The notes under the pieces: model-generated
Seen by the model: the letters and a program-made list of their open reading frames with translations, nothing else
Databases searched by the model: none
Told to the model about the DNA's origin: nothing
In this document: in pieces, positions 3,198 to 18,231 of the stretch
How positions within the stretch are numbered: position 1 is the stretch's first letter
How the letters are laid out: every line of letters starts with the position of its first letter
Translations under genes and position numbers: made by a program
Assembly: GCA_951812805.1 (NCBI GenBank)
Contig: CATOSZ010000018.1
Coordinates: forward strand, 1-64,000
Direction of reading: 5' to 3'
DNA length: 64,000 nt
DNA from: an uncultured Alphaproteobacteria bacterium
GTDB lineage: Bacteria; Pseudomonadota; Alphaproteobacteria; GCA-2731375

Positions 3198-4762
3198 GGC
3201 CCGTCCCTCCCGCCGGCGCGCATCGCCGCGCGCGGCAATCGGATGGGAAAGTGGGCGCGGATGCGCGCGTCCGTCTCCGGGTCGATATGGGCGGGATAGT
3301 GGCTGCCCAGGATCTCGCGGGCGAGACGACGCGCGCGTTCCCGGATATCCAACGCACCGGCGTCGGCCCAGTCCGACGGGCTCGCCCGGTCGCCCAGCGC
3401 CGGGTAGGTGTATTCCCGCTGCATCAACGCCAGCGTCTGGTCGTCGCCGAGGTAATGCACCGGGCCGTCCACCACCCCGCGCATGGTCCGGACCGACAGC
3501 GTGTCGTCGTTCACCTCGATCCCGCGCACGCAGCGCAACACCGCGCCCAGCATGTCGTCGTCGATAACATAGCTCTCGAAGGCGGCACCCAGCAGGCTCG
3601 CGTGCATGCCCGCGGCCTCGTACACCAGGTTGGCCCCGGCGAGCCCGGCGAGCGCGGTGGTATAGCCCTTCTCGTAGCCGGACTGGGCGTCGGGGATCTT
3701 GGCGTCGGCCATGCCGGCGGCGACGCCGTTCGGCAATCCGTAATAACCGGCCATCTGCGCCGCGGCGGCGGCCAGCAGGGCCTGTTCGCCGCTGCCCCCG
3801 CTCATCGCGCCGGTGCGCAGGTCGGAAACGAAGGGCCAGGTGCCGAAAATGGTCGGATGGCCCGGCTTCAACGCATTGACGTAGAGGGTGCCGGCGATGA
3901 CCTCCGCCACCGCCTGGGCCAGCGAGCCGGCGAGTGCGGCCGGGCTGGTCGCCCCCGCCTGGCCGGCGGAGAGCAGCAGGATCGGCATGCCGCGCGCCAC
4001 CCCCGCCTCGAGGCAGCGGCAGGCGTCCTCGGCGAAGCGCAATGGCGGCACCACGAAGCAGCACGACATGGAGACGAAGGGCCGGGCGGCGAAGGCGCCC
4101 TCGCCGCCGGCGATCATGTCCAGCATGTCGACCGTAGCGTGCACCGCCTCGGGCGTGGTGAAGGCGGTGCCGATATGCTTGCTCGTGCCGGCGACGGCGG
4201 CATAGCAGGTGTTGAGGTCCATCTCGAAGGGGTCTTCCAGGTCGCGGGCGACGACGGAGCGCTGGAAGAAATGGATGTTCTCGCGGGTGTCGACCAGGCG
4301 CGCGATATCGTAGAGATCGCGCAGGGTGGAATCGCGATAGGCGCCACTGTCGAGGTCGACCAGATGCACCGCCGCGCCGGCGGTACCGAAATGCACCCGG
4401 CGGCCGGACAGCTGCATGTCGTGGCGGGCGTCGCGCCCATGCAGCACCAGGTCGCGCGGAATGCGGGCCAGCATGTCCTCGACCATCGCGCGGGGGAACA
4501 GCAGCCGGCCGTTCTCCGACAACCGGGCACCGACCGCCTGCAGGGCCGCGACGCAGCTCGCGATCGGCTGCGCCATGCCGATGCCTTCCAGGATGTCGAG
4601 AACGGCGTGATGGACCTTGTCCATGTCCGCCACGCTCAACGGGCGGAAGCTGCCGCCGAGCTGGCCGGGACCCACCGCGCGGATCTCGGGCGGACGGGCG
4701 CGTTCCGCGCGGCGGGCCTCGCGGCCGCCGGAACGACGGGACTTCGAGCGCTGTTCGTTCAT
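3194..4762 (-). CDS. MttB-like (trimethylamine methyltransferase family) protein, non-pyrrolysine
   Basis: This 522-aa protein belongs to the MttB/trimethylamine methyltransferase family (TIM-barrel corrinoid-dependent methyltransferases). No internal TAG is read through, so it is of the non-pyrrolysine type; characterised members of that type act on glycine betaine, carnitine and related quaternary amines. The first ~35 residues are a basic Arg-rich extension. The barrel carries family-like segments such as GTSKHIGTAFTTPEAV and ADAKIPDAQSGYEKGY. No corrinoid-protein gene lies nearby. It is followed, with a 4-nt overlap, by an FAD/folate demethylase and preceded by an AraC-type regulator, so a role in N-methyl compound breakdown is inferred. 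The chemistry without a corrinoid partner is unclear. Confidence 0.8.
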   Translation of the reverse strand: MNEQRSKSRRSGGREARRAERARPPEIRAVGPGQLGGSFRPLSVADMDKVHHAVLDILEGIGMAQPIASCVAALQAVGARLSENGRLLFPRAMVEDMLARIPRDLVLHGRDARHDMQLSGRRVHFGTAGAAVHLVDLDSGAYRDSTLRDLYDIARLVDTRENIHFFQRSVVARDLEDPFEMDLNTCYAAVAGTSKHIGTAFTTPEAVHATVDMLDMIAGGEGAFAARPFVSMSCCFVVPPLRFAEDACRCLEAGVARGMPILLLSAGQAGATSPAALAGSLAQAVAEVIAGTLYVNALKPGHPTIFGTWPFVSDLRTGAMSGGSGEQALLAAAAAQMAGYYGLPNGVAAGMADAKIPDAQSGYEKGYTTALAGLAGANLVYEAAGMHASLLGAAFESYVIDDDMLGAVLRCVRGIEVNDDTLSVRTMRGVVDGPVHYLGDDQTLALMQREYTYPALGDRASPSDWADAGALDIRERARRLAREILGSHYPAHIDPETDARIRAHFPIRLPRAAMRAGGRDGP

Positions 4763-4858
4763 CGCACACCTGACGCAATTGCCGGGAACGCGTTCGTCCG
4801 GTACGGCGACGAACAGGCGAAGTGTGCGCCCGCCCGCGGCATCGAATCGCGCGGGCCG

Positions 4859-4885
4859 GCGACAGCTTGTGTCAGAACAGCGACA
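4859..4885 (-). promoter_or_regulatory. Candidate AraC-type operator: direct repeat TGTCGC spaced 21 bp
   Basis: On the minus strand the hexamer TGTCGC occurs twice in the same orientation, with starts exactly 21 bp apart (two helical turns). It lies about 97-123 bp upstream of the mttB-like start and just downstream of the regulator's stop codon. Direct repeats at this spacing are the usual layout of AraC-family binding sites. The assignment to the neighbouring regulator is inference. Confidence 0.4.
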
Positions 4886-4890
4886 TTGGG

Positions 4891-5874
4891 TCAGGCGACG
4901 GCGCGGCGGTCCTGGCGCGGGGAGTGGCCGTAGGCGGCACGGTAGAGCTGGCTGAAATAGGTCGGCGAGGAAAAGCCGCAGGCAAAGGCGATCTCGGCGA
5001 TGCGGAGGTTGGTCTGCTCGACCATGCGCCGGGCCGCCTTCAGGCGGATGCTCATGTAGTAGTGGCCGAGCGTGGTGCCGAGGTGGCGGCGGAACAGCCG
5101 CTCCAGCTGCCGCTTCGACAGGCCGACGGCGAGCGCGAGTTCCGGCGGCCGCAGCGGCACCTCGACGTTCGCCTCCATCAGGCCGACGCAGGTCACCAGC
5201 TTCGGGTGGATGGAGCCCAAGCGGTTGACCAGCGCCATGCGCTGGGGGTCGGTCGGCGCACGGACCCGCTCGAGCACGAAGCAGTCGGTGATCTCGCCGG
5301 CGAGATCCCAGCCATGCTCCGCCGCGATGAGCGCCAGCATCATGTCGAGGGCGGCGGTGCCGCCGGCGGCGGAGAATCGCTTGCCGTCGAGCTGGTAGAG
5401 ATCGGTCGAGACCTCGAGCTCCGGGAAAGTCTCGAGGAAGGCGGGCAGCACCTCCCAGTGCATGGTGCAGGGATGGCGGCCCATCAGTCCGGCGCTGGCC
5501 AGCACATAGGCCCCGGTGCACAGGCCGCCGAGCTTGGCGCCGTGCCGGTCGAGCCGACGCAACCAGGCGAAGACGGCGGGCTCGCGGTAGGGCGCGGGAT
5601 CGAACGGCCCGATGACGACGACCGTGTCATAGGCCGGCGCCTCGCGCACCGCCCGGTCGGCGGGCGTCGCCATGTCGTTGGAGGCGGTGACCGGCCCGCC
5701 GTCGACGCTGATCACCTCCCAGCCATAGAGCGCTGAATCGCGCAGCCGGTTGGCGGCGCGCATCGCCTCGATCGCCGAGACGAAGGCCAGCATGGAAAAG
5801 GTCGGGGCAAGGAAGAAACCGACGCGCCGTTCAGCCGGGCCGGCGAAGATCCCATGTCGCTCAGCTGCCGTCAT
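4891..5874 (-). CDS. GlxA/GbdR-like AraC-family transcriptional regulator
   Basis: This 327-aa regulator has an N-terminal DJ-1/PfpI (GATase-1-like) domain, roughly residues 16-185. The nucleophile-elbow-like segment GGLCTGAYVLASAG is visible there. A C-terminal AraC HTH pair follows: LALAVGLSKRQLERLFRRHLG and then IAEIAFACGFSSPTYFSQLYR. This architecture matches GbdR/CdhR-type activators of glycine betaine, carnitine and dimethylglycine catabolism. The ATG at 5874 gives a leader of normal length; an upstream in-frame GTG at 5928 would add 18 residues. It is co-directional with, and 128 bp upstream of, the mttB-like/demethylase pair, which it probably controls. Confidence 0.85.
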   Translation of the reverse strand: MTAAERHGIFAGPAERRVGFFLAPTFSMLAFVSAIEAMRAANRLRDSALYGWEVISVDGGPVTASNDMATPADRAVREAPAYDTVVVIGPFDPAPYREPAVFAWLRRLDRHGAKLGGLCTGAYVLASAGLMGRHPCTMHWEVLPAFLETFPELEVSTDLYQLDGKRFSAAGGTAALDMMLALIAAEHGWDLAGEITDCFVLERVRAPTDPQRMALVNRLGSIHPKLVTCVGLMEANVEVPLRPPELALAVGLSKRQLERLFRRHLGTTLGHYYMSIRLKAARRMVEQTNLRIAEIAFACGFSSPTYFSQLYRAAYGHSPRQDRRAVA

Positions 5875-7089: not shown

Positions 7090-7401
7090 CTACAGGTCCC
7101 GCGGATCGTCGACGAAGAGGTGCGGCTCGTCGCCTGCCGGTGTCGCCGCCAGGATAGTCACCCCCGCGGCCGAGCGGAAACGATGCCAGCAGGCCTTCGG
7201 CACGACGACAAGGGCGCCCGCCGCCAGATCCAGGGTCTGAAGCTCGTCGTCGACGATGATGTCGAATTCGGTGGCGCCCGCGATGATCTGCACCAGCTCG
7301 TCGCCGGCGAGATGGCGTTCCCAACCCGCGTTGCCGTCGAAGCTGCCGACAGCGATCCGGGCGTCCTTGAAATCGCCCTGGCCCAGGCCGCGGAATGTCA
7401 A
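7090..7401 (-). CDS. Small cupin-domain protein with 5' end altered by an IS insertion
   Basis: This is a single-domain cupin of about 100 residues. The motif-1 region is GWERHLAGDELVQIIAGATE and motif 2 is GALVVVPKACWHRF, containing the conserved His. Cupins of this size are metal-binding storage, isomerase or sensor proteins. The frame begins TTG-ACA-TTC; the TTG and ACA codons belong to the terminal inverted repeat of an IS21-family element, and native sequence begins only at the TTC codon. The original start was therefore lost, and any expression would rely on the TTG within the IS end. It could equally be a 5'-truncated pseudogene. Confidence 0.65.
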   Translation of the reverse strand: MTFRGLGQGDFKDARIAVGSFDGNAGWERHLAGDELVQIIAGATEFDIIVDDELQTLDLAAGALVVVPKACWHRFRSAAGVTILAATPAGDEPHLFVDDPRDL

Positions 7402-7470
7402 TCAGCATTTAATTCTGACCCCCTATCGGCGTGCAAAATTGACCCCCCCCCTCCCTTGCTTCGACGGAGG

Positions 7471-7573
7471 TTGTCCCGGTAGTCCACGGGAGGGCCCCGC
7501 GCGGCTTCGTGTAGCGCTTTGCGTTACGCGGAGCGAAGCCGCGTGGGAGGGGCCTGTGGGCCCACCGGGACAA
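7471..7573. repeat. Long imperfect inverted repeat (103 bp) in the IS21 left arm
   Basis: The outer arms TTGTCCCGGT (7471-7480) and ACCGGGACAA (7564-7573) are perfect complements. Inner arms GCGGCTTCG (7501-7509) and CGAAGCCGC (7534-7542) pair as well, and GGGCCCC/GGGGCC segments lie between. The whole segment can fold into one GC-rich cruciform or hairpin. It lies between the IS end and the IS256-like remnant and encodes no protein. Confidence 0.7.
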
Positions 7574-7687
7574 CCGGGCCGGCGGCGGAACGTGGGGATC
7601 AGGTGGGGTTCTTGAAGTGGCAATGAGCTTTTGAAGTAGTGTCCAGACTGTTCTGCAAGTTTGTCATGGCTGCCGATGAGGGCCACC

Positions 7688-7735
7688 GGCATGCCTGGCG
7701 CGGAGATTTCGATTGCTCGGAGCGCCAGGCATGCC
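7688..7735. repeat. 14-bp inverted repeat GGCATGCCTGGCGC / GCGCCAGGCATGCC
   Basis: Perfect 14-bp arms are separated by 20 bp, immediately downstream of the IS256-like transposase fragment's stop. It may be the original terminal structure of that element. There is no U-tract, so it is not a typical intrinsic terminator. Confidence 0.55.
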
Positions 7736-7744
7736 GAGCCGCCG

Positions 7745-7920
7745 TCAGGCGGCTTTCTGGATGCGTTCGCTTTTGCTCTCCTTGAGATGGATCATGTTGA
7801 GCTAGCGGTTGGCATCCAGCCAGTCCTCATGGATTTCGATCGCGAGAGCCCGGACCAGCCGGAGGCAGCTCATCCACCCCATCGGCCCGGACTTGTGCCC
7901 CAGCTACGAAACCCCTTTTG
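7745..7920 (-). pseudogene. C-terminal fragment of an IS256-family transposase
   Basis: The minus strand reads CLRLVRALAIEIHEDWLDAN-R, then an in-frame TAG, then LNMIHLKESKSERIQKAA and a TGA. This closely resembles the end of IS256/mutator-type transposases, which close with an RLxxAL-E-x-E-W...RYLNM pattern. The TAG replaces the expected Tyr codon of RYLNM. Everything upstream, including the DDE core, is missing, so it is non-functional. Confidence 0.55.
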
Positions 7921-7968
7921 CAGAACAATCTGTACAGGACCCGTTTTGATTTGCCCGCCTTTGCGATG

Positions 7969-8017
7969 AAAGCCCCCAGGCTGATTGGCTCCATATAGCG
8001 GATCAGCCTGGGGCTTT
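7969..8017 (-). terminator. Hairpin downstream of istB
   Basis: AAGCCCCCAGGCTGAT and ATCAGCCTGGGGCTT form a 15-bp stem with one bulged C and a loop of about 17 nt. It begins 14 nt past the istB stop on the minus strand. Flanking T/A runs are short, so termination efficiency is uncertain. Confidence 0.5.
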
Positions 8018-8030
8018 GCTTACAGGGCGG

Positions 8031-8762
8031 CTACTTTTGTCGTCGCTGTTTGCTTTGTGCGAAGCGGTAAGACATGTTGCCTGTTTCGATGATTGCGCAG
8101 TGATGCGTTACACGATCCAGCAACGCGGTTGTCATTTTTGCATCTCCGAAGACGGAGACCCATTCCCCGAACTCCAGATTGGTGGTGATGATGACGCTGG
8201 TCTTCTCATAGAGTTTGCTGATCAGGTGGAACAAGAGCGCACCGCCGGATTTGGGGAATGGGATATAGCCCAGTTCGTCGATGATGACGCAATCCATGGC
8301 CGTCAGTTGCCGGATGATCTTGCCGGCGTTGCCTTCGGCCTGTTCCTTGATCAGCGCATTGATCAGATCGACGGCGTTGAAGAAACGGACCTTCTTTCCC
8401 TGATTGATCAACAGCGTCCCCAGAGCAATGGCGATGTGGGTTTTGCCCGTACCGGTTCCGCCCACCAGAATGAGGTTGTGGGCCTCCTGGGTGAACTGCC
8501 CTGAGCAGAAGGGGTCGATTTGCGCTTGGGTGACGGCGGCTAGGCCGTAATCGAAAGTGGCGAAGTCCTTATGGTGGGGGAACTTCGAGGCCCGCATTTG
8601 GTGCTGGATAGAGCGCACCCGGCGCTCTACAGTCTCGGCGTCGATCAGTTGCTTTATCGCAGTGGTCAGACTTGGCGGCTTGCGCGCGGCCAGCAAAGCT
8701 TCGGCGCAAGCCGCCATTCCATACAGCCTCAGGGCGATCAGTTGGTCTATCAAAGCTTTCAT
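8031..8762 (-). CDS. istB: IS21-family helper ATPase IstB
   Basis: This 243-aa AAA+ ATPase is related to DnaC/DnaA helpers and acts with IstA in target capture. Walker A is [13 protein letters not shown] near residues 99-111, Walker B is [13 protein letters not shown], and the sensor segment is [13 protein letters not shown]. Length matches the family (about 240-260 aa). The ATG at 8762 overlaps the istA stop (ATGA), giving translational coupling. The frame is intact, so the element may still be active. An upstream extension to 8786 would lie entirely inside istA and is not needed. Confidence 0.92.
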
Positions 8763-10258
8763 GCGACGGCCTCCCCGGCAACGCACAGCGTCTCATAGCG
8801 CTTGCAGTCCGCTTCGGGCCGCAAGGTCAGTTGCGGATAGGCGTGGCTCTCGCCCCATGGCGCGATGACCGGCTCCACCAGTTGGTTGATCAGATTGATG
8901 ATGGCCGGAAGGCGCAGCGTGTTCTGCTCCACGGCCAGTTCACAGGCTATCTCGACCACCTCGATCCCGTGATCCTGGGCCAGCAGGAGCAGATCGACAA
9001 ACTCCCGGTCCCCGCCTTTGCCGGCCATGTAATGCGCCCTGACCCGGTGCATCGCCTCAGGCAATTGCCAACCCACAAAGGGCGCGCCATCTCTCAGCGC
9101 GCCGGGCTTGCGGTCGAGTAGGGGCAGGTAATGCCAGGGCTCGAAATAGCTGGCGTTGCGGGTAAAGCGGCGCTTGTGCTCGGCAATCACATTCTGCCCT
9201 GACACAACCACGATCCGGTCCGCATAGGCGCGCAGAGAGACAAGCTCCCCGGCGAACCGGGAGGGGACGCTATAGCGATTGGTGGCATATTGGACCAGAC
9301 AGGTAGAGCGGACACGAGCGGCCTTCTCAACATAGCCGTCAAAAGCCCGGCCCAGGGGACGCAGTTCGGCGCACTCGTCTGCGAACACGTCCGAGATCTT
9401 GCGATCCGATTGTTCGGGGTGGGCGCGATTCGCCAATTCCTCGCAGCGCAGACGCAACCAGCCGTTCAGCGCATCCAGATCGTCAAAGGCGGGCTTGGGC
9501 GCAAACAGCTGTCCCCGCAGGAACCCAACCTGGTTCTCAATCTGACCCTTCTCCCACCCCGCCGCGGGTGTGCAAGCAACCGGTTCCATCACATAGTGGT
9601 TCATCAACGCCAGAAAGCGCGGATGGAACACACGGTCCTTAGAGCGCGAAACATAGGTTACCATCGTCTTGGGGTTGTCGATGATCACCCGGCGCGGTAC
9701 GCCGCCATAGAAAGACATCGCCCGTGCAAAGGCGTCCAGCACCATCTCCTGAGATTCGCTGGGATAGGCAACAACAAAGGGCTTGCGGCTATGACATAGG
9801 CGGAAGTGGGCAACCTTTACCTTCTGCTCGACACCGCCCAGGACAGCGTATTCCGTGCTCCAGTCAAACTGGAGCGCGTCACCTGCCGTAAAGTGCAACG
9901 GAATGAACGCATCCCCCGATCCGGCGCCAGAACGCTTCAGGTCGCGGACAAACCTCTGAACCGTCGAGTAGGATCCGCTATAGCCTTCCGACACAAGCTG
10001 CTCATAAAGCTTCTTGGCCGTCCGGCGCTCACGGCGCGGGCGCCCCAGGTCCTGCTCAAAGAGCGCCCGAAGCCGGCTGGCGAAGCCATCGCTAAGCTTA
10101 CGCCGGACGGGTGAAACGCGCCGCTGATAGCTCGGTGGATCGCCGTCCTTCAGATACTTCTTAATCGTGTTCCGCGACAAACCAGTCTGACGAGATACAG
10201 ATCGGATACTCCGACCCTCCCGTAATATCCAACGTCGGATCTTCAATACGCTTTCCAT
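8759..10258 (-). CDS. istA: IS21-family transposase IstA
   Basis: This 499-aa DDE transposase starts with an HTH region ([20 protein letters not shown], then [11 protein letters not shown]). An rve integrase core follows: first Asp in LQFDWSTEY, second Asp in IIDNPKTM, and Glu in [10 protein letters not shown] Mu-C-like C-terminal part completes it. Length and domain order are full for the family, so it is probably functional. I chose the ATG at 10258, just before the conserved LKIRRW; an in-frame GTG at 10285 would add nine residues. It is read outward from the right IS end, where CCCACC-type repeats lie upstream. Confidence 0.92.
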
Positions 10259-10438
10259 CAATACCACCTGCTCTTTCCTCCGCACTGTTCCGTGCGGATG
10301 CTAGCGTTCCAGGTGGGTCAATTCTTACCGCTCATAACCCACCAAAGTGGGTCAGTTTTGCATGCCGATTCACAGCCCGGGGTTATTGAACGTGTCGTCC
10401 GCGCGCGGATCCGAATCCGAGGAAAGAAGGCAGCAGGC

Positions 10439-10834
10439 ATGAGCCAGGTGGAAATCGTCCAGGCCCCTGATCTCGACGGGTGTCGCGAGGCGTTCGTATT
10501 GCGGGAAGATCGGGTCGGCCATTATCCGGAATTTCGCGATTTCTTCGCGCGCACCTTCGACCTCGAGCGGGTCGGCCTGGCGACGCCCGGCTATCTTCGC
10601 GGACCCTCCGGCATGAGCTATGCCGTCGTCTTCCTCGGCCGCAGCGGCGAGCCGTTCCCCGCCGGCGTGGAGCTGTTCGCCCTGCCGGCGGCGTTGGAGC
10701 CACTCGACGACGCGGCGGTGGACAAGGATCTCTGGGCCATTCTCGGCTGGATGATCGACGGCGTCGGCCCGCCCTGGAGCCGCGCGGACCTGGAGGCGAC
10801 GGGGCGGCTGTACCGGATCCCGGCGACGCGCTGA
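10439..10834 (+). CDS. Conserved-looking small protein of unknown function
   Basis: This 131-aa acidic, soluble-looking protein has no signal peptide or membrane segment. It includes LREDRVGHYPEFRDFFARTF and AILGWMIDGVGPPWSRADLE; I do not recognise a family. The ATG follows a purine-rich GAGGAAAGAAGG ribosome-binding stretch. The codon use is typical of the rest of the window and unlike the IS genes, so it is chromosomal. It lies 64 bp right of the IS21 end, divergent from the cupin gene, so the IS sits where their shared promoter region was. Confidence 0.65.
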   Translation: MSQVEIVQAPDLDGCREAFVLREDRVGHYPEFRDFFARTFDLERVGLATPGYLRGPSGMSYAVVFLGRSGEPFPAGVELFALPAALEPLDDAAVDKDLWAILGWMIDGVGPPWSRADLEATGRLYRIPATR

Positions 10835-10929
10835 TCGGCCACCGCCGAAACGTGCGGCCTTGTGCGCTTTCGACGCTGCGCCTATCTCAAATCGGGTAGG
10901 AGGGGTCCTCTCGGCGCCCCTCCTCCCAC

Positions 10930-10963
10930 ACCACCGGGCATACGTTCTACGTACCACGGCGGT
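10930..10963 (-). other. Group II intron domain V candidate
   Basis: The RNA strand ACCGCCG-UGG-UACG-UAGAA-CGUA-UGCC-CGGUGGU forms a 7-bp lower stem (one G-U), a bulge and a 4-5-bp upper stem, exactly 34 nt. It overlaps the last codons of the maturase gene. The following stem (GGAGGGG/CCCCUCC, about 10898-10928) with an unpaired A in CUACCC fits domain VI and the branch point. Confidence 0.55.
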
Positions 10964-12386
10964 TTCCGGTCAGTTGTAACGCGAGATACCTATCGGTCAT
11001 AGGGACAAGCCCCTGGCCTTCGAACCAAGCCAGGGTCATGGCTTCGGTGGCTTGATAGCTGAGGGACTTGCGCCACCAGCCCTTGCCGGAGAGAGCCAAG
11101 ATCCAGGCCCGCCGCTCGGGCACCCCGAGGCTTCGCAGGAAGTCCGCTTGCGCCTTGGTGCGCTTGCATTGCTTGAGCCGGACACAGCGCAGTTTTCGAC
11201 GGATCCAGCCGTCGAGACGCCGAAGCTGGCTCGCGCAACGGGCATGGCGGAAGTACGTCACCCAGCCGGCGAGGAAGCCGTTGAGTTCGCCGACCATGCG
11301 CGCGAGGCTGATGCCCCGGTTGCGCCGGGTGATCTCGCGAACCCGTTGCTTCGCCCGCCGCAGGCTTTGCGGCGCGATGCCGAGCGATCCATCCGACAAC
11401 AGCCGGTGGCCGAGGAACTTGCGGTCCCCGGCCGGAGCGACGGCACTTTTCTCCTGGTTGACCCGCAGATGCAACCTGCCTTGGAGGAATTCGGCGACCG
11501 AGGCCATCACCCGCTCGCCCGCCGCTCGAGTGCGAACGTAGATGTTCACGTCGTCGGCATAACGGCAGAAGCTATGGCCCCGCGCCTCCAGCATCCGGTC
11601 CAGATCGTCCAGTAGAAGATTGGCCAGCAGCGGCGACAGCGGGCCGCCTTGCGGCGTGCCCTCATGGCGCCGGATGCAGACGCCGGTCTGCATCATCCCC
11701 GCTTGCAGAAAGCGACGGATGGTGCGCAGCAGGCGCTTGTCGCCAATCCGCCCAGCCAGTCGGGACATCAGAATGTCGTGATTGACCCGGTCGAAGAACG
11801 CCTCCAGATCCAGGTCGACCACAATCCCGCGGCCTTCGGCAACGTACTTACCCGCTTGGGCCAGAGCATCGTGAGCGCTCCGGCCCGGACGGAAGCCGAA
11901 ACTCGAAGCCGAGAAACCCGGATCGAGGATCGGCTGAAGGACGTGCAGGATGGCTTGCTGAACCAGACGATCCAGCACCGTCGGGATGCCCAATTGCCGC
12001 ATCCCGCCTCCCGGCTTGGGGATCGAGACCCCCTTCACCGGTTGGGGCCGATAGTCGCCTCGCGACAACGCCGCCACCAGCGCGTCCTTGTGATCGACGA
12101 GCCAGAGCCGCAGGTCTTGGATGGTCATCCCATCCACGCCCGCCGACCCCTTGTTCGCCTTCACCCGCTTGTAGGCTTGGTTCAGGTTGGCGGAACTCAC
12201 CACCCGTTCCATCAGGTCTTGCGTCAAGGCTCGTTGCCGGTCCAACGCCGTGCGCACTTGTGGCACCTCGCAGGCTCCAGTTCCGGTTCCGCCGTCACCA
12301 GGGGCCTCGGGGCGCAGCGCCTTCATCAGGGCCTCGTCGAAAAGGTCCAATTGATAGCCACCGCCTTGCTGCCGCTCCATGCTCAT
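10947..12386 (-). CDS. ltrA: Group II intron reverse transcriptase/maturase
   Basis: This 479-aa intron-encoded protein carries the RT blocks in order: GSAGVDGMT (about residue 79), GFRPGRSAHDA, DLDLEAFFDRVNHD (catalytic Asp), GTPQGGPLSPLLANLLL, CRYADDVNIYV (YADD active site) and FLGHRL. A maturase X/thumb region with ELNGFLAGWVTYFRHA follows. It ends TGNRRGT with no HNH endonuclease domain, as expected for the class C lineage. It assists splicing and reverse transcription for retrohoming. The frame is complete, so activity is plausible. Confidence 0.92.
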   Translation of the reverse strand: MSMERQQGGGYQLDLFDEALMKALRPEAPGDGGTGTGACEVPQVRTALDRQRALTQDLMERVVSSANLNQAYKRVKANKGSAGVDGMTIQDLRLWLVDHKDALVAALSRGDYRPQPVKGVSIPKPGGGMRQLGIPTVLDRLVQQAILHVLQPILDPGFSASSFGFRPGRSAHDALAQAGKYVAEGRGIVVDLDLEAFFDRVNHDILMSRLAGRIGDKRLLRTIRRFLQAGMMQTGVCIRRHEGTPQGGPLSPLLANLLLDDLDRMLEARGHSFCRYADDVNIYVRTRAAGERVMASVAEFLQGRLHLRVNQEKSAVAPAGDRKFLGHRLLSDGSLGIAPQSLRRAKQRVREITRRNRGISLARMVGELNGFLAGWVTYFRHARCASQLRRLDGWIRRKLRCVRLKQCKRTKAQADFLRSLGVPERRAWILALSGKGWWRKSLSYQATEAMTLAWFEGQGLVPMTDRYLALQLTGNRRGT

Positions 12387-12797
12387 CGAGTTGGTCCAGA
12401 CTGCTCCTTGCTATTCGGATTCGGCCCTTCGGCGCCTCGCGGCCCCTACTATGGCCTCGGCTGACTTCTCCACCGCCGTCGCTCCCCGTCGCCGGGTCGC
12501 TACTCGGTTCCCCCGAGAGCGCTGGAGATCTCCCTGGGTAAAACCTTGATCTTTCCGCCGGTCGCGGCCGGATTTACCAATGCGATGTCCGAACGACTAT
12601 CGGGCATCGCCATCCATTGCTGGCTTACCCCATCGCACCGGCCTGATATCCGGTTTCTGTTCGTCCGCTCCGGATTTTGCCTCCGGCTTCCTCCCCACCC
12701 CACCTCGCGGCGACGCAGTTGCCTTCAGCTAACGGTTCCGGTCGTTACGGCCCGTAGAGAACTTCCATCTCCTAGATCAACGCCATGCCAGGCACAC

Positions 12798-12825
12798 AAG
12801 AAAAAGGGCGCCCCGCAGGGCGCCC
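12798..12825 (-). terminator. Rho-independent terminator of the sRNA (UNCG loop)
   Basis: The 8-bp stem GGGCGCCC/GGGCGCCC closes a TGCG loop (UNCG class, very stable). It is followed on the minus strand by TTTTTCTT. The U-tract ends exactly at the predicted 5' end of the group II intron. Confidence 0.85.
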
Positions 12826-12929
12826 GAAGCGACATCCAACCGGGTTGAGGGCATGAACGGTTGGATAGAGAGGGAAAGCTACACTCAAGGTGAAGGCCCC
12901 TTGCCGGTAGGACCGCCTCGCGGCCTTCG
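12798..12929 (-). ncRNA. Candidate sigma-54-dependent small RNA, about 130 nt
   Basis: Downstream of a perfect -24/-12 element the minus strand encodes three neat hairpins. Hairpin 1 pairs GAAGGCC (12928-12922) with GGCCTTC (12898-12892). Hairpin 2 pairs ATCCAACCG (12866-12858) with CGGTTGGAT (12842-12834) around a 15-nt loop. Hairpin 3 is the terminator. The linker between hairpins 1 and 2 and the second loop are pyrimidine-rich (TTTCCCTCTCT; TGCCCTCAACC), the kind of single-stranded patch that can pair with purine-rich ribosome-binding sites. No credible protein is encoded. The transcription start is predicted to within a few nt from the promoter. I recognise no known RNA family. Confidence 0.65.
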
Positions 12930-12939
12930 GGTACTACGT

Positions 12940-12956
12940 AGCAAGGGGCGTGCCAA
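12940..12956 (-). promoter_or_regulatory. Sigma-54 (-24/-12) promoter
   Basis: The minus strand reads TTGGCACGCCCCTTGCT, a full match to the RpoN consensus YTGGCACG-N4-TTGCW, with GG and GC dinucleotides 12 bp apart. It predicts transcription starting near 12929-12932, heading into the three-hairpin sRNA. By chance such a full match is rare. Confidence 0.8.
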
Positions 12957-12995
12957 CTTTTACGATCTGCGGAAAACCAACGATTTTTTGTTTCC

Positions 12996-13013
12996 ATCAC
13001 CCAAATAGGTGAT
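12996..13013. promoter_or_regulatory. Candidate enhancer palindrome ATCACC-N6-GGTGAT
   Basis: This 18-bp inverted repeat (ATCACC, CAAATA spacer, GGTGAT) is centred about 75 bp upstream of the predicted sRNA start. Sigma-54 promoters need an activator bound upstream, and this position and symmetry suit a dimeric NtrC-type activator. Which activator binds is unknown. Confidence 0.45.
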
Positions 13014-13023
13014 ATTTCCAATT

Positions 13024-13037
13024 ATGGCACGTGCCAT
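13024..13037. promoter_or_regulatory. Candidate enhancer palindrome ATGGCACGTGCCAT
   Basis: This perfect 14-bp palindrome is centred about 100 bp upstream of the predicted sRNA start and 26 bp from the other palindrome. It contains TGGCAC in both directions. It may be a second activator site; sequence symmetry and position are the only evidence. Confidence 0.4.
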
Positions 13038-13127
13038 TTCGATACATTAATTCAGATCTAGGAATAGTCGGTCAAATTGATCAGTCCCGAATTGGGAATT
13101 TGCCGCTATTTTCGATAAAGACCGCCC

Positions 13128-14312
13128 TCAGCCTTCCGGCGCCAATCTTTTTTCGACCAGGCGCGTCCAGTAGCTCGCGCCGAGAGCGAGAATCTCGTCG
13201 TTGAAGTCGTAGCCGGGATTGTGCACCTGGCAGGCTTCGCCCCCCTGGCCGGTTTCGTCGCCGTTGCCGATGTAGATATATGCCCCGGGGCAGGCCTCCA
13301 GCATATCGGAGAAGTCCTCCGAGGCCATGACGAGGGAGCGGTTGCGGTCGACGTTCTCCTCGCCGACCAGGTCCGCGGCGACGGTCGCGACGAAGGCCGC
13401 CTCGTCCACGTCGTTCACCAGCGGGCGGAAGATGTCGCGGAAGTCGACCTCGGCGCGGGCGCCGAAGCCCTCGGCGATGCCGCGTGCCAGCTCGCCGATA
13501 CGCCGTTCGACCAGGGCCATGGTCTCGCGGCTGAACACGCGCACGGTGCCGCCCAGGCTCGCGTCGTTGGGGATGACGTTGTAGGCGTCGCCCGCGTGCA
13601 GGCGGGTGATCGAGAGGACGACGGTGTCGTGCGGGCGGGCATTGCGGGCGACGATGGTCTGCAGGGCGGCGACGATCTGCGCCGCGATCGGCACCGGATC
13701 GATCGAGCCCTCCGGCCGCGCACCGTGGGCGCCCCGGCCGATCACGCGCACGTCGAAGAAAGCGCCGCCCGCCATCATCGGCCCGGACCGGATGGCGAAC
13801 TTGCCGGGCGCCACGCTCGGCGTGTTGTGCATGCCGTAGATCCGTTCCATCGGGAAATCGCGAAACAGGCCGCCCTCGACCATCGCGCGGGCGCCGCCCA
13901 GGCCCTCTTCCGCCGGCTGGAAGACGAAGTGGACGGCACCGTCGAAGTTCCGGGTTTCCGCCAGATGGCGGGCCGCGCCGAGCAGCATGGTGGTATGGCC
14001 GTCGTGGCCGCAGGCGTGCATCTTGCCGGCCTGGGTCGAGCGGTGGGCGAAGTCGTTCGCCTCGTCGATCGGCAGGGCGTCCATGTCGGCGCGCAGGCCG
14101 ATGGCACGCGGGGTGTTGCCGACGCGCAGCGTGCCGACGACGCCGGTGCCGGCGAGGCCGCGATGCACCTCGATGCCCCACTCCGCCAGTAGGCCGGCGA
14201 CGATGTCCGAGGTCCGCGTCTCCTCGAAGCCGAGTTCGGGATGGGCGTGGATGTCGCGGCGGATCCGGGCGAGCTCGTCGGCCCGCGCGGCGATCTCGGG
14301 GATGATGTTCAT
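13128..14312 (-). CDS. M20 family amidohydrolase (hippurate/N-acyl amino acid hydrolase type)
   Basis: This 394-aa M20D metallopeptidase/amidohydrolase has family markers in order: RRDIHAHPELGFEE (residues 19-32), LRADMDALPIDE, KMHACGHDGHTTMLL (metal-binding Cys, His, Asp), FQPAEEGLGGARAM, and MASEDFSDML near the C-terminus. Relatives hydrolyse N-acyl or N-carbamoyl amino acids, hippurate or IAA conjugates in the cytoplasm. ATG start. It is divergent from the aldolase/TauD/enolase operon with about 130 bp between the starts, so it may supply or clear a substrate for that pathway. The exact substrate cannot be told from sequence. Confidence 0.88.
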   Translation of the reverse strand: MNIIPEIAARADELARIRRDIHAHPELGFEETRTSDIVAGLLAEWGIEVHRGLAGTGVVGTLRVGNTPRAIGLRADMDALPIDEANDFAHRSTQAGKMHACGHDGHTTMLLGAARHLAETRNFDGAVHFVFQPAEEGLGGARAMVEGGLFRDFPMERIYGMHNTPSVAPGKFAIRSGPMMAGGAFFDVRVIGRGAHGARPEGSIDPVPIAAQIVAALQTIVARNARPHDTVVLSITRLHAGDAYNVIPNDASLGGTVRVFSRETMALVERRIGELARGIAEGFGARAEVDFRDIFRPLVNDVDEAAFVATVAADLVGEENVDRNRSLVMASEDFSDMLEACPGAYIYIGNGDETGQGGEACQVHNPGYDFNDEILALGASYWTRLVEKRLAPEG

Positions 14313-14444
14313 GGGCGCGTCGTCCTTCCGTGCCGGGGCCCGCCACTCTGCCCGCGCGGGCCGCACTGTCAAGGGCCGACTGGACCCCTTGCGGCCGTGG
14401 TGGCATTCTGCCCGCGACCCTTTCCCGCACGGAGCCTTCCCGCC

Positions 14445-15227
14445 ATGAACATCGCCGCCCAGGGCGTCCAGAACGCCAACATCGAAGAGACCCGCCGCCA
14501 GGCCCGCATCGACCTCGCCGCCGCGCACCGCATTGCGGTGATGCACGAGTTCCACGAGGGCATCTTCAACCACTTCACCCTGGTCGTGCCGGGCACCACC
14601 GATCGCTATTACCAGATCCCCTTCGGCCTGCACTGGTCGGAAGTGACGGCGAGCTGCTTCATGGAGGTCGGCTTCGACGGCGCCCTGCTGGCCGGTGAGG
14701 GCGAGATCGAGCGGTCCTGCTATTGCATCCACGCGCCGATCCACGAGCTGGCGGGGCACGCCACCGCCGTCTTTCATACCCACATGCCCTATGCCAGCGC
14801 GCTCACCCGGCTGAAGGACATGCACATCAAGCCGATCGGCCAGACCGAGCTCGGCACGATGATGCAGACCGGCTACGACTATCTCTATACCGGCCCCGCC
14901 TTCGTCCGCGAGGAGGGCGTGCGCCTGGCCGGCGTGCTGGGCGATAAGGGTATCTTGATGATGGCGAACCACGGCGCGCTCACCGTCGGCCGTTCCGTCG
15001 CCGAGGCCTACGACCGGCTCTACTATCTCGAGCGGGTCGCCCAGGTGCAGCTCTATGCCATGTGGAGCGGGCAGGAGTTGAACCCGTTGCCCGAGGAAAC
15101 GATCCAGAAGACCTACGACATCTACAAGAGCAAGTCGCCGAAGTATGGCGGCAAGTCGAACCACGAGCATCACTTCCAGGCCCTGAAGCGGATACTCGAC
15201 CGGCGCGAGCCGGACTACCGCGACTAG
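14445..15227 (+). CDS. Class II aldolase/adducin family protein
   Basis: This 260-aa class II aldolase/adducin-fold protein shows the zinc-binding pair of the family in FHTHMPYASALT (His-x-His near residue 105) and the later His in MANHGALTVG. Family members are L-fuculose-phosphate aldolases, ribulose-5-phosphate 4-epimerases and decarboxylase-like proteins. An uncharged substrate is possible because a clear phosphate-binding signature is not evident. GGAG lies 8-11 nt upstream of the ATG. It is the first gene of an operon with a TauD dioxygenase 15 bp downstream. Confidence 0.85.
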   Translation: MNIAAQGVQNANIEETRRQARIDLAAAHRIAVMHEFHEGIFNHFTLVVPGTTDRYYQIPFGLHWSEVTASCFMEVGFDGALLAGEGEIERSCYCIHAPIHELAGHATAVFHTHMPYASALTRLKDMHIKPIGQTELGTMMQTGYDYLYTGPAFVREEGVRLAGVLGDKGILMMANHGALTVGRSVAEAYDRLYYLERVAQVQLYAMWSGQELNPLPEETIQKTYDIYKSKSPKYGGKSNHEHHFQALKRILDRREPDYRD

Positions 15228-15242
15228 GCGGGCGGGGCGGTC

Positions 15243-16160
15243 ATGGCGCTCGCCCGGCCGGAGGTGCTGCCCCGGATCGTGCCCACGGGCGCCGCGCTCG
15301 GCGCCGCGGTGGTGGATCTCGACGTGACCCGCCCCGTCTCCGCCGAGGCGGCGGCGGTGTTGAACCGGGGCCTCGACGAGCACGGTGTGCTGCTGGTCCG
15401 CGGCCAGCCGATGACGCCCGGCGAACTCACCGCCTTCTCGCGCGTCTTCGGCGCGTTGCAGCCGCACGTGCAGAAGATCTACCACCATCCCGAAGACCCG
15501 AACGTGGTCGTCATGACCAACCGCAAGCCCGACGGCAGCTTCAACGAGGCGGGCGCGCGGCGGGGTGCGACCGAGGAGACCCGGCACGGCTGGCATTCCG
15601 ATCTCGCCTACGATCCGGTGCCGGCCAAGGCGACGCTGCTGCACGCCCAGGCGGTCCCCTCCTCCGGCGGCAACACCTGCTTCTCGAACGCCTTCCGGGC
15701 TTATGGCGACCTGTCGGACACGCTGCGCCGCCGGCTCGACGGGCTGGAGGGGGAATTTCCCTACGGCGGCCATACCCGCAACAAGGCGACCGCGCTCGCC
15801 GCCAGCACCCTCGATGCCGAGGCGCAGAAAAGCGCGCAGGCCGTCCATCCCATCGTCGTCGCCCATCCGGTGACCGGCCGGCCGGCGATCTATGCCAACC
15901 CGCTGGTGACGTCCTGCATCCTCGGCCTGGACAGGGCCGAGAGCGAGGCGCTGATCGAGGCGCTGGCCGGCGCCCTCGACCGGCCCGACTATCGCTGGGA
16001 GCATGTCTGGTCGCCGGGCGACACGCTGATCTGGGACAACCGCGGCGGCACCATGCATACCGGCCGCCTCGACTATCCGCGCGCGGAGGAGCGGACCTTC
16101 ATCCGCACCACGGTCACCGGCGCGGCGATGATCCCCCACCGCCTGCCGGCCGACGCGTGA
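15243..16160 (+). CDS. TauD/TfdA-family Fe(II)/2-oxoglutarate dioxygenase
   Basis: This 305-aa TauD/TfdA dioxygenase has the Fe-binding His-x-Asp in GWHSDLAYDPVP (about residue 118), the distal His in TMHTGRLDYPR and the 2-oxoglutarate-binding Arg shortly after (RTFIRTTVTG). Such enzymes hydroxylate sulfonates, phenoxyacetates or carboxylates and split off the resulting leaving group. The stop overlaps the GTG start of the downstream enolase-superfamily gene by 4 nt (GTGA). Substrate unknown; together with an aldolase and an enolase-superfamily dehydratase or racemase it suggests breakdown of a hydroxy acid or ether. Confidence 0.88.
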   Translation: MALARPEVLPRIVPTGAALGAAVVDLDVTRPVSAEAAAVLNRGLDEHGVLLVRGQPMTPGELTAFSRVFGALQPHVQKIYHHPEDPNVVVMTNRKPDGSFNEAGARRGATEETRHGWHSDLAYDPVPAKATLLHAQAVPSSGGNTCFSNAFRAYGDLSDTLRRRLDGLEGEFPYGGHTRNKATALAASTLDAEAQKSAQAVHPIVVAHPVTGRPAIYANPLVTSCILGLDRAESEALIEALAGALDRPDYRWEHVWSPGDTLIWDNRGGTMHTGRLDYPRAEERTFIRTTVTGAAMIPHRLPADA

Positions 16161-17248
16161 AGATCCAGCGTATCGAGACGTTTGCCCGGCCCGAGGTCGC
16201 GCTGGTCCGCGTCACCGCCGAGGACGGCCTGCAGGGCTGGGGCCAGGTTGCGCCCTATCACGCCGACCTGACGGCCGCGGTGCTGCACCGCCAGGTGGCG
16301 CCGCACGCCCTCGGCCAGCCGGCGGACGATCTGATGGGCCTGGAGACCCGGATCCTGGAGGCCGAGTACAAGTTCCCGGGCTCCCACGTCTGCCGCGCGC
16401 TCGGCGGCCTGGACACCGCGCTCTGGGATCTCGCCGGCAAGCGGGCCGGCAAGTCGGTCTGCGAGCTGCTCGACGGCACGCCCCGCCCGGTACCGGTCTA
16501 CGGTTCCTCCATGCGCCGGGACATCGGCCCCGTGGACGAGGGCGAGCGCCTGCGACGGCTGGCCGGCGAGCAGGGCTACCGCGCCTTCAAGTTCCGCATC
16601 GGCGTCGAATGCGGCCATGACGGCGACGCCTGGCCCGGCCGCACCGAGGCGATCGTGCCCGCCGTGCGCCGCGCGCTCGGCGACGATTGTCACCTGATGG
16701 TCGACGCCAATAGCTGCTACACCCCCGCCAAGGCGATCCAGGTCGCGGAGCTACTGGCCGAGCACGGCATCGCCCACTACGAGGAGCCCTGCCCCTATTG
16801 GGAGCTGGAATGGACCGCCCAGGTCCGCGAGGCGGTGCCGATGGACGTCACCGGGGGCGAACAGGACTGCATGATGGGCCAGTGGCGGCGCATGCTCTCT
16901 CTTCCGGCGGTCGACATCGCCCAGCCGGACGTCTGCTACATCGGCGGCCTGACCCGCACGATCCGTGTCTTCGACATGGCCGCGGCGGCGGGCCTGCCCT
17001 GCATCCCCCATTCCGCCAACCACACGCTGGTCACGGTCTTCTCCCTCCACCTGATGGGCGCCCATCCCAACGCCGGCCCGCATGTCGAGTTCTCGATCGA
17101 GGACGACCCCTGGGCCCGGGGCATCTATGAACCGGTCCTGATCGCGCGCGACGGCAAGGTGCAGATCCCCGACGGCCCGGGCTGGGGCGTGGAGATCGCC
17201 GAGGACTGGCTGGCCGGCGCATCCTACGCGGAAAGCGTGCTGGAATAA
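16157..17248 (+). CDS. Mandelate racemase/muconate lactonizing enzyme family protein
   Basis: This 363-aa enolase-superfamily enzyme has a capping domain in residues ~1-115 and a barrel after it. The base motif is FKFRIGVE (K-x-R) near residue 142. The three metal ligands appear in MVDANSCY (Asp), HYEEPCPYWE (Glu) and TGGEQD (Glu), and a catalytic His in PHSANHT. The pattern matches the mandelate racemase subgroup (acid-sugar dehydratases or racemases). The GTG start, coupled to tauD, is chosen because VKIQRIETF aligns with the usual N-terminus. It is the last gene of the operon. Confidence 0.87.
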   Translation: MKIQRIETFARPEVALVRVTAEDGLQGWGQVAPYHADLTAAVLHRQVAPHALGQPADDLMGLETRILEAEYKFPGSHVCRALGGLDTALWDLAGKRAGKSVCELLDGTPRPVPVYGSSMRRDIGPVDEGERLRRLAGEQGYRAFKFRIGVECGHDGDAWPGRTEAIVPAVRRALGDDCHLMVDANSCYTPAKAIQVAELLAEHGIAHYEEPCPYWELEWTAQVREAVPMDVTGGEQDCMMGQWRRMLSLPAVDIAQPDVCYIGGLTRTIRVFDMAAAAGLPCIPHSANHTLVTVFSLHLMGAHPNAGPHVEFSIEDDPWARGIYEPVLIARDGKVQIPDGPGWGVEIAEDWLAGASYAESVLE

Positions 17249-17343
17249 CCGCGCGCCGACAATTACTTGCAAAGAACAAGTCTTTCTGACAAATTGCTTT
17301 CGATCTGCAAGCAATTCCGAGTACCCTCGATGGACCGCCGCCC

Positions 17344-18231
17344 ATGAACCGCGCGATGACCACGGCCGACTGGGCGTTGCTGCTGACGGCGGCGCTGCTT
17401 CTCGGCAGTACGTTTCTCTTCCTCAACATCGCCATCCGGGAGATCACGCCGCTCACCTCGGCGGCGCTGCGCACGCTGATCGCGGCGCCGATCTGCTGGG
17501 GCTTGATGCGGGCGTTCGGCGTCCGCCTGCCGTGCACGCGGGAGGGCTGGGTGGCGCTCGCCTGGCTGGGCCTGCTGACCGGCGCCATCCCCTTCGGTGC
17601 GATTTCCTGGGGCCAGCAGCATATCGAAAGCGGCATGGGCGGCATCCTGTTCGGCACCATGCCGATCCTGACCGTCGTGCTGGCGCCGCTGTTCCTCGCC
17701 GAAGAAAGCTTCACCCGCCGGCGCCTGGCGGGCGGGGCGGCGGGTTTCGTCGGCATCGTCCTGCTGGTGGGCCCTTCGGTGCTGGCCAACGCGAGCACCC
17801 AGGTCCTCGGCATCGCCGTCACCTTTCTCGCCCCGCTGAGCCACACCCTCGGCGCCATCTACGCCCGCCGGCAAAGCGGCCTGACCCCGCCCGCCATGGC
17901 CACCGGCCAGATGGTCTTCGGCGCGGTGATCCTGGTGCCGCTCGCCTTCGCGTTCGAAGCGCCGCTCGACCTCAGCCCAAGTCCGGCGGCGATCGGCGCC
18001 ATCCTGGTCGCGGGCGTTTTCTGCACCGCGATCGCCATGAGCCTCTATTTCGTCGTGGTCCGCCGGATCGGCGCTACCCGCAGCACGCTGATCCCGCTGT
18101 TCTTCCCCGTCGTCGCCGTGGTCCTCGGCACCGTGCTGCTGGGCGAGCGGTTGCCGCTCGAAGCCTTTGTCGGGCTGGCGTTGATTCTGGCCGGCGCGAT
18201 CGCCGTCAGTGGCCGTACGCCAGGCGCCTGA
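17344..18231 (+). CDS. DMT superfamily transporter (EamA family)
   Basis: This 295-aa inner-membrane protein has ten predicted hydrophobic helices in two EamA repeats; each repeat ends near an LL-GE-type segment (LFLAEE; LLGERLPLEAFVG). The family exports amino acids and other metabolites. It starts with ATG 95 bp after the enolase-superfamily gene, in the same direction. It could serve that pathway or be independent. The intergenic sequence is AT-rich. Confidence 0.88.
   Translation: MNRAMTTADWALLLTAALLLGSTFLFLNIAIREITPLTSAALRTLIAAPICWGLMRAFGVRLPCTREGWVALAWLGLLTGAIPFGAISWGQQHIESGMGGILFGTMPILTVVLAPLFLAEESFTRRRLAGGAAGFVGIVLLVGPSVLANASTQVLGIAVTFLAPLSHTLGAIYARRQSGLTPPAMATGQMVFGAVILVPLAFAFEAPLDLSPSPAAIGAILVAGVFCTAIAMSLYFVVVRRIGATRSTLIPLFFPVVAVVLGTVLLGERLPLEAFVGLALILAGAIAVSGRTPGA

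Follow-up and report, generated by a model that had tools for sequence, protein, structure and literature searches.

On its minus strand, the window (the whole stretch of 64,000 nucleotides that was analysed) carries a short gene that we consider likely to specify an RpoN-controlled, base-pairing and trans-acting small RNA (sRNA) of a new family. Comparison with related genomes supports a conserved RNA structure, a conserved promoter and hairpin loop, a putative activator site upstream, tandem paralogues in one genus and a distribution over most of the sampled order. The gene and its promoter are located as follows.

12801..12929, minus strand: sRNA gene of about 130 nt; start deduced from the promoter and end from the terminator, supported by covariance-model homologues and covariation
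12956-12940, minus strand: sigma-54 promoter TTGGCACG-CCCC-TTGCT (-24/-12), found by pattern match and kept in nearly all of 25 copies

The original prediction, made from the letters of the window, had placed a perfect RpoN promoter on this strand, and the pattern search located it there. The element TTGGCACGCCCCTTGCT was the sole promoter match in the window when up to one mismatch was allowed, against a chance expectation of 0.11. Exact matches were found only twice in the whole 7.4-Mb genome, each time at a copy of the sRNA locus, and the reversed promoter, used as a control on the same genome, gave 0 exact matches. Promoter conservation in relatives had been set beforehand as a test of the prediction, and TTGGCAYG-N4-TTGC (-24/-12) indeed recurred in nearly all copies (n = 25), the core TGGCAYG-N4-TTGC lying about 12 nt ahead of the RNA. 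RpoN itself, a sigma factor of stress and nutrient responses, is encoded in all 15 genomes of the order. The transcript would start near position 12929, about 12 nt past the GC of the -12 element, as had been proposed.

Folding and comparison of the relatives divided the RNA into these elements.

12928-12892, minus strand: hairpin 1, from folding; across relatives double changes affect 4 of 6 pairs of the outer stem and 3 of 3 of the inner stem
12877-12867, minus strand: pyrimidine-rich linker TTTCCCTCTCT, largely unpaired in the centroid fold
12867-12833, minus strand: hairpin 2, with 9-10 perfect pairs and a 15-nt loop; double changes in 8 of 9 pairs among relatives
12854-12843, minus strand: loop of hairpin 2, ATGCCCTCAACC (DNA: TGCCCTCAACC), a putative seed, from sequence comparison and folding
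12825-12801, minus strand: intrinsic terminator with a UGCG (UNCG-type) loop and five T, from folding; the stem covaries in relatives

Three hairpins, the last of them a terminator with a UNCG loop and a U-tract, had been described beforehand, and the folding showed this description to be accurate. The two pyrimidine-rich stretches that had been pointed out are present as well, one as the largely unpaired linker and the other within the hairpin-2 loop. The linker reads GCUUUUCUCUC or similar in most relatives, and UGCCCUC of the hairpin-2 loop was present in 24 of the 25 copies while the flanking stems vary. Folding z-scores were -3.1 for the window copy and -7.7 for the relative in genome G004. 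Compensatory base changes, the second test that had been laid down in advance, were strong. In a MAFFT alignment of nine sequences 94% of the cells pair, 13 of 29 pairs are double-changed and 0 of 500 shuffles reached the covariation score. In the alignment of 25 sequences, which was fitted to the structure and hence leans towards it, both partners change in 20 of 29 pairs, and none of 500 shuffles did as well; sliding the partners by 1-3 columns reduced pairing from 95% to 21-48%. Thus, judged from the aligned copies, the three helices have strong support from compensatory changes.

The initial DNA search returned two copies: one, identical, on a different contig of the window's assembly, and the other, diverged, in G004, a genome of the same family (record JANQKO010000056.1, an Alphaproteobacteria metagenome bin). 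The G004 copy keeps the promoter and the core AAAGCTTTCCCTCTCTGTCCAACCGTTGATGCCCTCAACCCGGTTGGAT, and its hairpin 1 and terminator differ in sequence yet still fold. A covariance-model search of relatives, as had been asked for with the original prediction, was carried out in three rounds. Model R1, built from two copies (window and G004), detected the RNA in six more genomes of the family; R2, built from nine of the R1-stage copies, extended the matches to all of one genus, g3; and R3, built from 25 copies, which match by construction, recovered it from 14 of the order's 15 genomes, with E values of 2e-20 to 4e-46. These 15 genomes sample the order through the single family present in the collection. 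By R3 no copy of the RNA was found in G003, which does encode RpoN; thus the RNA is not essential in the order.

Beyond the family, a search of 385 genomes across the class gave no match that combined promoter and loop, under strict filters by which distant relatives may be missed. The weak class-wide model matches, including that in G148, mostly had the promoter or the loop missing. The match in G177 was likewise set aside. At this locus (L072; G177:C32:385256-385389), which belongs to a different family of the class, a terminator follows a sigma-54-like promoter within about 135 bp, and the UGCCCUCA loop of hairpin 2 is missing. The locus is possibly a different sigma-54 sRNA. A BLAST-type DNA search with the core found one relative only, this type of search being too insensitive for the others. 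The exact pattern scan of an 84,980-genome collection gave 8 matches; only the G004 record was judged a homologue by inspection, the others having neither hairpin-2 loop nor terminator. Terminator-like fragments were all that was obtained from a plasmid collection. In Rfam 15, no family scored above gathering for the sRNA when the whole window was searched, and a permissive search of window and relatives gave weak matches below gathering; the near-misses suhB/mmgR (20.4 bits versus a gathering value of 41), TarB and SorY were driven by the terminator. A literature search for the motifs as strings returned nothing relevant. The original prediction had recognised no known sRNA of such structure, and the RNA family is apparently previously undescribed.

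Most g3 genomes contain two copies, 260-370 bp apart and each with its own promoter and terminator, and G007 contains three. The loop of copy A is UUCGUGCCCUCAA and that of copy B CCCGUGCCCUCAGG. In the tree, the A and B paralogues split on one branch with 99/97 support, which points to a single duplication that predates genus g3; the family offers a clear example in which tandem sRNA paralogues separated before a genus diversified and were both retained. Where the context could be read in g3, the copies are in most cases flanked by an alpha/beta-hydrolase gene on one side and a convergent SnoaL-like gene on the other, with a different arrangement in G008. At the window locus and at that of G004 there is only one copy of the RNA, surrounded by other genes, which favours a trans-acting RNA. 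Neighbouring genes vary from genus to genus, which speaks for a gene of its own and against a cis element. RNA structure and terminator of this unit are conserved, and its copies share no ORF. A second G008 copy (L066; G008:C397:1654-1816) has a damaged core and has lost the loop, with an intact copy elsewhere in the same genome; it may be a decaying paralogue.

The upstream regions share a 17-bp dyad, roughly YGYCYCA-N3-TGRSACR (near TGYCYCA-N3-TGRSACA), about 76 bp 5' of the -24 box. When a matrix was used from which the tested genome had been left out, the best match lay 74-78 bp upstream in 18 of 22 g3 copies, compared with 4% of shuffles. NtrC operators have a 7-3-7 layout, and the dyad of the sRNA family has it too. 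The window contains the following candidate sites and palindromes.

13046-13030, minus strand: putative enhancer-binding-protein site 1, TGTATCGAAATGGCACG; best match of the g3-only matrix (14.5 bits, p ~0.001 versus shuffles)
13031-13015, minus strand: putative enhancer-binding-protein site 2, CGTGCCATAATTGGAAA, weak; second match of the g3-only matrix, 74 bp upstream of the -24 box
13037-13024, minus strand: palindrome ATGGCACGTGCCAT, overlap of putative sites 1 and 2
13013-12996, minus strand: palindrome ATCACC-N6-GGTGAT

Both palindromes had been proposed as activator sites. The proposal survives for ATGGCACGTGCCAT, in modified form, as the overlap of two dyads, and fails for ATCACC-N6-GGTGAT, which matches no element conserved in relatives. 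By our estimate a 14-bp perfect palindrome such as ATGGCACGTGCCAT is unusual, and 6-bp arms whose spacing is free come close to chance. In G001, of genus g2, the g3-trained matrix found TGTGCCAAATTGGCGCA at 76, and CGGTTCGATATGGCACG occupies a place comparable to site 1 of the window. The conserved dyad at 74-78 bp is thus a putative enhancer-binding site of the family, with the exception of G004, where the promoter is kept but the matrix scan showed no upstream site of the family type. Between operator and promoter, most g3 copies also have a recurring A/T-rich block of the GGCTGAAAACNGCGATTTTT type about 20-45 bp before the -24 box, possibly a DNA-bending (IHF-like) site. When a regulon was searched with the degenerate operator, a sigma-54 promoter stood at the matching distance in only one case outside the sRNA loci, in G002:C44 (L192; near 13478, minus strand). 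There the operator CGTCCCAACATGGCACA lies 78 bp before the sigma-54 promoter TTGGCACGGATCCTGCA of a gene for a PAS_5-domain protein, and co-regulation of this gene with the sRNA is possible.

In the mechanism we propose, an NtrC-type enhancer-binding protein would bind one, two or three dyads located some 75-120 bp 5' of the -24 box and drive RpoN polymerase, and the RNA would end at the intrinsic terminator. From the promoter and the fold we infer that such a transcript, dependent on RpoN, would expose two pyrimidine-rich segments that stay unpaired, namely the linker (UUUCCCUCUCU or its GCUUUUCUCUC variant) and the hairpin-2 loop. Loop and linker would most likely pair, probably with Hfq, to purine-rich mRNA stretches, e.g. 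ribosome-binding sites, and the paired mRNAs would be turned down while the signal of the activator is present. In one genus the diverged tandem copies A and B would work in parallel.

In 8 genomes, targets were sought with TGAGGGCACG, the complement of the g3 loop. Matches of this sequence outnumbered those of the reversed control even when the sRNA loci themselves were left out, and the 60 inspected sites lay mostly within coding frames, with no recurring 5' region among them. The start-region sites G007 L151 and G009 L164 were rejected as targets, each being single and not conserved. As a tentative extension, one RpoN-dependent activator might, through an operator of the TGTCYCA-N3-TGRGACA type, control the A/B sRNAs and the PAS-domain protein as a lineage switch, with the UGCCCUCA loop and the UUUUCUCUC linker as a new seed pair. 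If this somewhat doubtful picture were true, sub-specialised tandem sRNAs would act within one regulon through seeds unlike the known alphaproteobacterial sRNA seeds.

To our knowledge, sigma-54-dependent sRNAs are few, and the well-studied Qrr, GlmY/Z, NrsZ and CrcZ are all gammaproteobacterial. The Qrr RNAs comprise several paralogues that work in parallel. As proposed here for the window RNA, Qrr of Vibrio (LuxO/SypG) are sigma-54 sRNAs switched on by enhancer-binding proteins (PMC10162802); they differ, however, in sequence and structure, belong to another class and gave no Rfam match. NrsZ of Pseudomonas (RpoN with NtrB/C) is likewise a stand-alone sRNA induced by RpoN and an enhancer-binding protein (PMC9308961), a control that the window RNA would share. 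Unlike the latter, NrsZ is 226 nt long, lies beside ntrC and carries the motif ACAGGCAG in stem-loop I; it comes from another bacterial class, and no Rfam match was obtained. GlmY/GlmZ of Enterobacteria (QseF/GlrR) are also a sigma-54-linked paralogous pair, and their activator site TGTC-N10-GACA (PMC8745638) resembles the TGTC-N9-GACA of the family but is one base longer between the half-sites; the family sites, 17-bp dyads of the N9 type, thus depart from the GlrR/QseF site. Moreover, GlmY/Z act via RapZ on glmS (PMC7073468), a route that sets them apart from the window RNA, to which they gave no Rfam match.

Within the same class, alpha-r14/NfeR1 and cuckoo (CcsR) RNAs also form hairpins with pyrimidine-rich unpaired motifs. 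NfeR1 has been linked to NtrC and has a sigma-70 promoter, and the unpaired regions of its family carry the anti-Shine-Dalgarno CCUCCUCCC (PMC10746234). Membership in alpha-r14/cuckoo was rejected, as CCUCCUCCC is absent in 25 of 25 copies and a sigma-54 promoter is conserved instead of a sigma-70 promoter. The window RNA adds a well-supported sRNA family for a little-known alphaproteobacterial order, in which promoter, activator-like site, structure and putative seed are defined by comparison, and one covariance model, one operator and two seeds are gained as probes for finding the activator and the targets.

The main alternative to a base-pairing sRNA is a sigma-54-controlled RNA that titrates a protein in the manner of a sponge; CrcZ does so with Hfq, and Rsm/Csr RNAs with RsmA. 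The strongly kept single-stranded motifs and the tandem copies would suit titration. The RsmA/CsrA motif is GGA in a loop, and the CrcZ type has A-rich repeats; the UGCCCUC loop and the linker are instead pyrimidine-rich with neither of these features, and no motif is repeated inside one RNA. We therefore regard a sponge as rather unlikely, even with RpoN-driven CrcZ as a precedent (PMC9308961). A leader or short-protein gene, with the promoter serving a small ORF or some gene downstream and the terminator acting as an attenuator, appears very improbable. Some g3 copies do have an ORF of about 44 codons from near +1 (MKVEWH...), and in the window an intron and further genes follow downstream. 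This frame, however, is open in some copies and reads ATG-TAA at the same place in several others, and it is lost in G004 and in the window, whose copy has no reading frame in common with the others, in line with the earlier statement that no protein fits this stretch. Furthermore, the base changes track stems and not codons, and the downstream genes vary from one genus to another, with a convergent orientation in most g3 genomes.

The sRNA is followed in the window by a group II intron of about 1.9 kb, which the original prediction had overlooked and which begins at about 12797-12799, directly behind the sRNA terminator.

10890..12799, minus strand: group II intron, not part of the sRNA; Rfam group-II-D1D4-3 and D1D4-1, ends uncertain by 1-3 nt
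10947..12386, minus strand: intron-encoded reverse transcriptase/maturase; RVT_1, GIIM and TIGR04416 (394.6 bits, cut-off 300)

Intrinsic terminators are the places where group II introns of class C integrate (PMC4424553). Here, insertion right behind such a terminator is combined with a group II reverse transcriptase/maturase, so the sRNA terminator probably served as the intron target; class C is suggested by the position, the models matched being Rfam D1D4 domains and a generic maturase. Because the intron follows exactly on the terminator, from about 12798, and the locus lies inside a long repeat, the stretch could also be taken for a landing site or accessory of the intron or of the duplicated segment and would then have no regulatory function itself. 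We hold this to be extremely unlikely, since in relatives the RNA is followed by other genes and no intron, with promoter and loop conserved there, and since the general preference of class C introns for terminators (PMC4424553) makes the RNA the host site and not the guest. A base-pairing sRNA under RpoN control remains the preferred reading for this stretch.

The long repeat, likewise missed at first, spans more than 10 kb (window 7396-17720; L006 1-12233) and is duplicated on contig C7 with 100% identity. The C7 copy has two intron units in tandem. Either the segment was duplicated very recently or the repeat is an effect of the assembly. Elsewhere in the window, an Rfam PYLIS_3 match at 3613-3712 (minus strand) falls within an mttB-like ORF at 3194-5521 (minus strand) that is open without an amber codon, and this ORF appears to encode a non-pyrrolysine MttB homologue.
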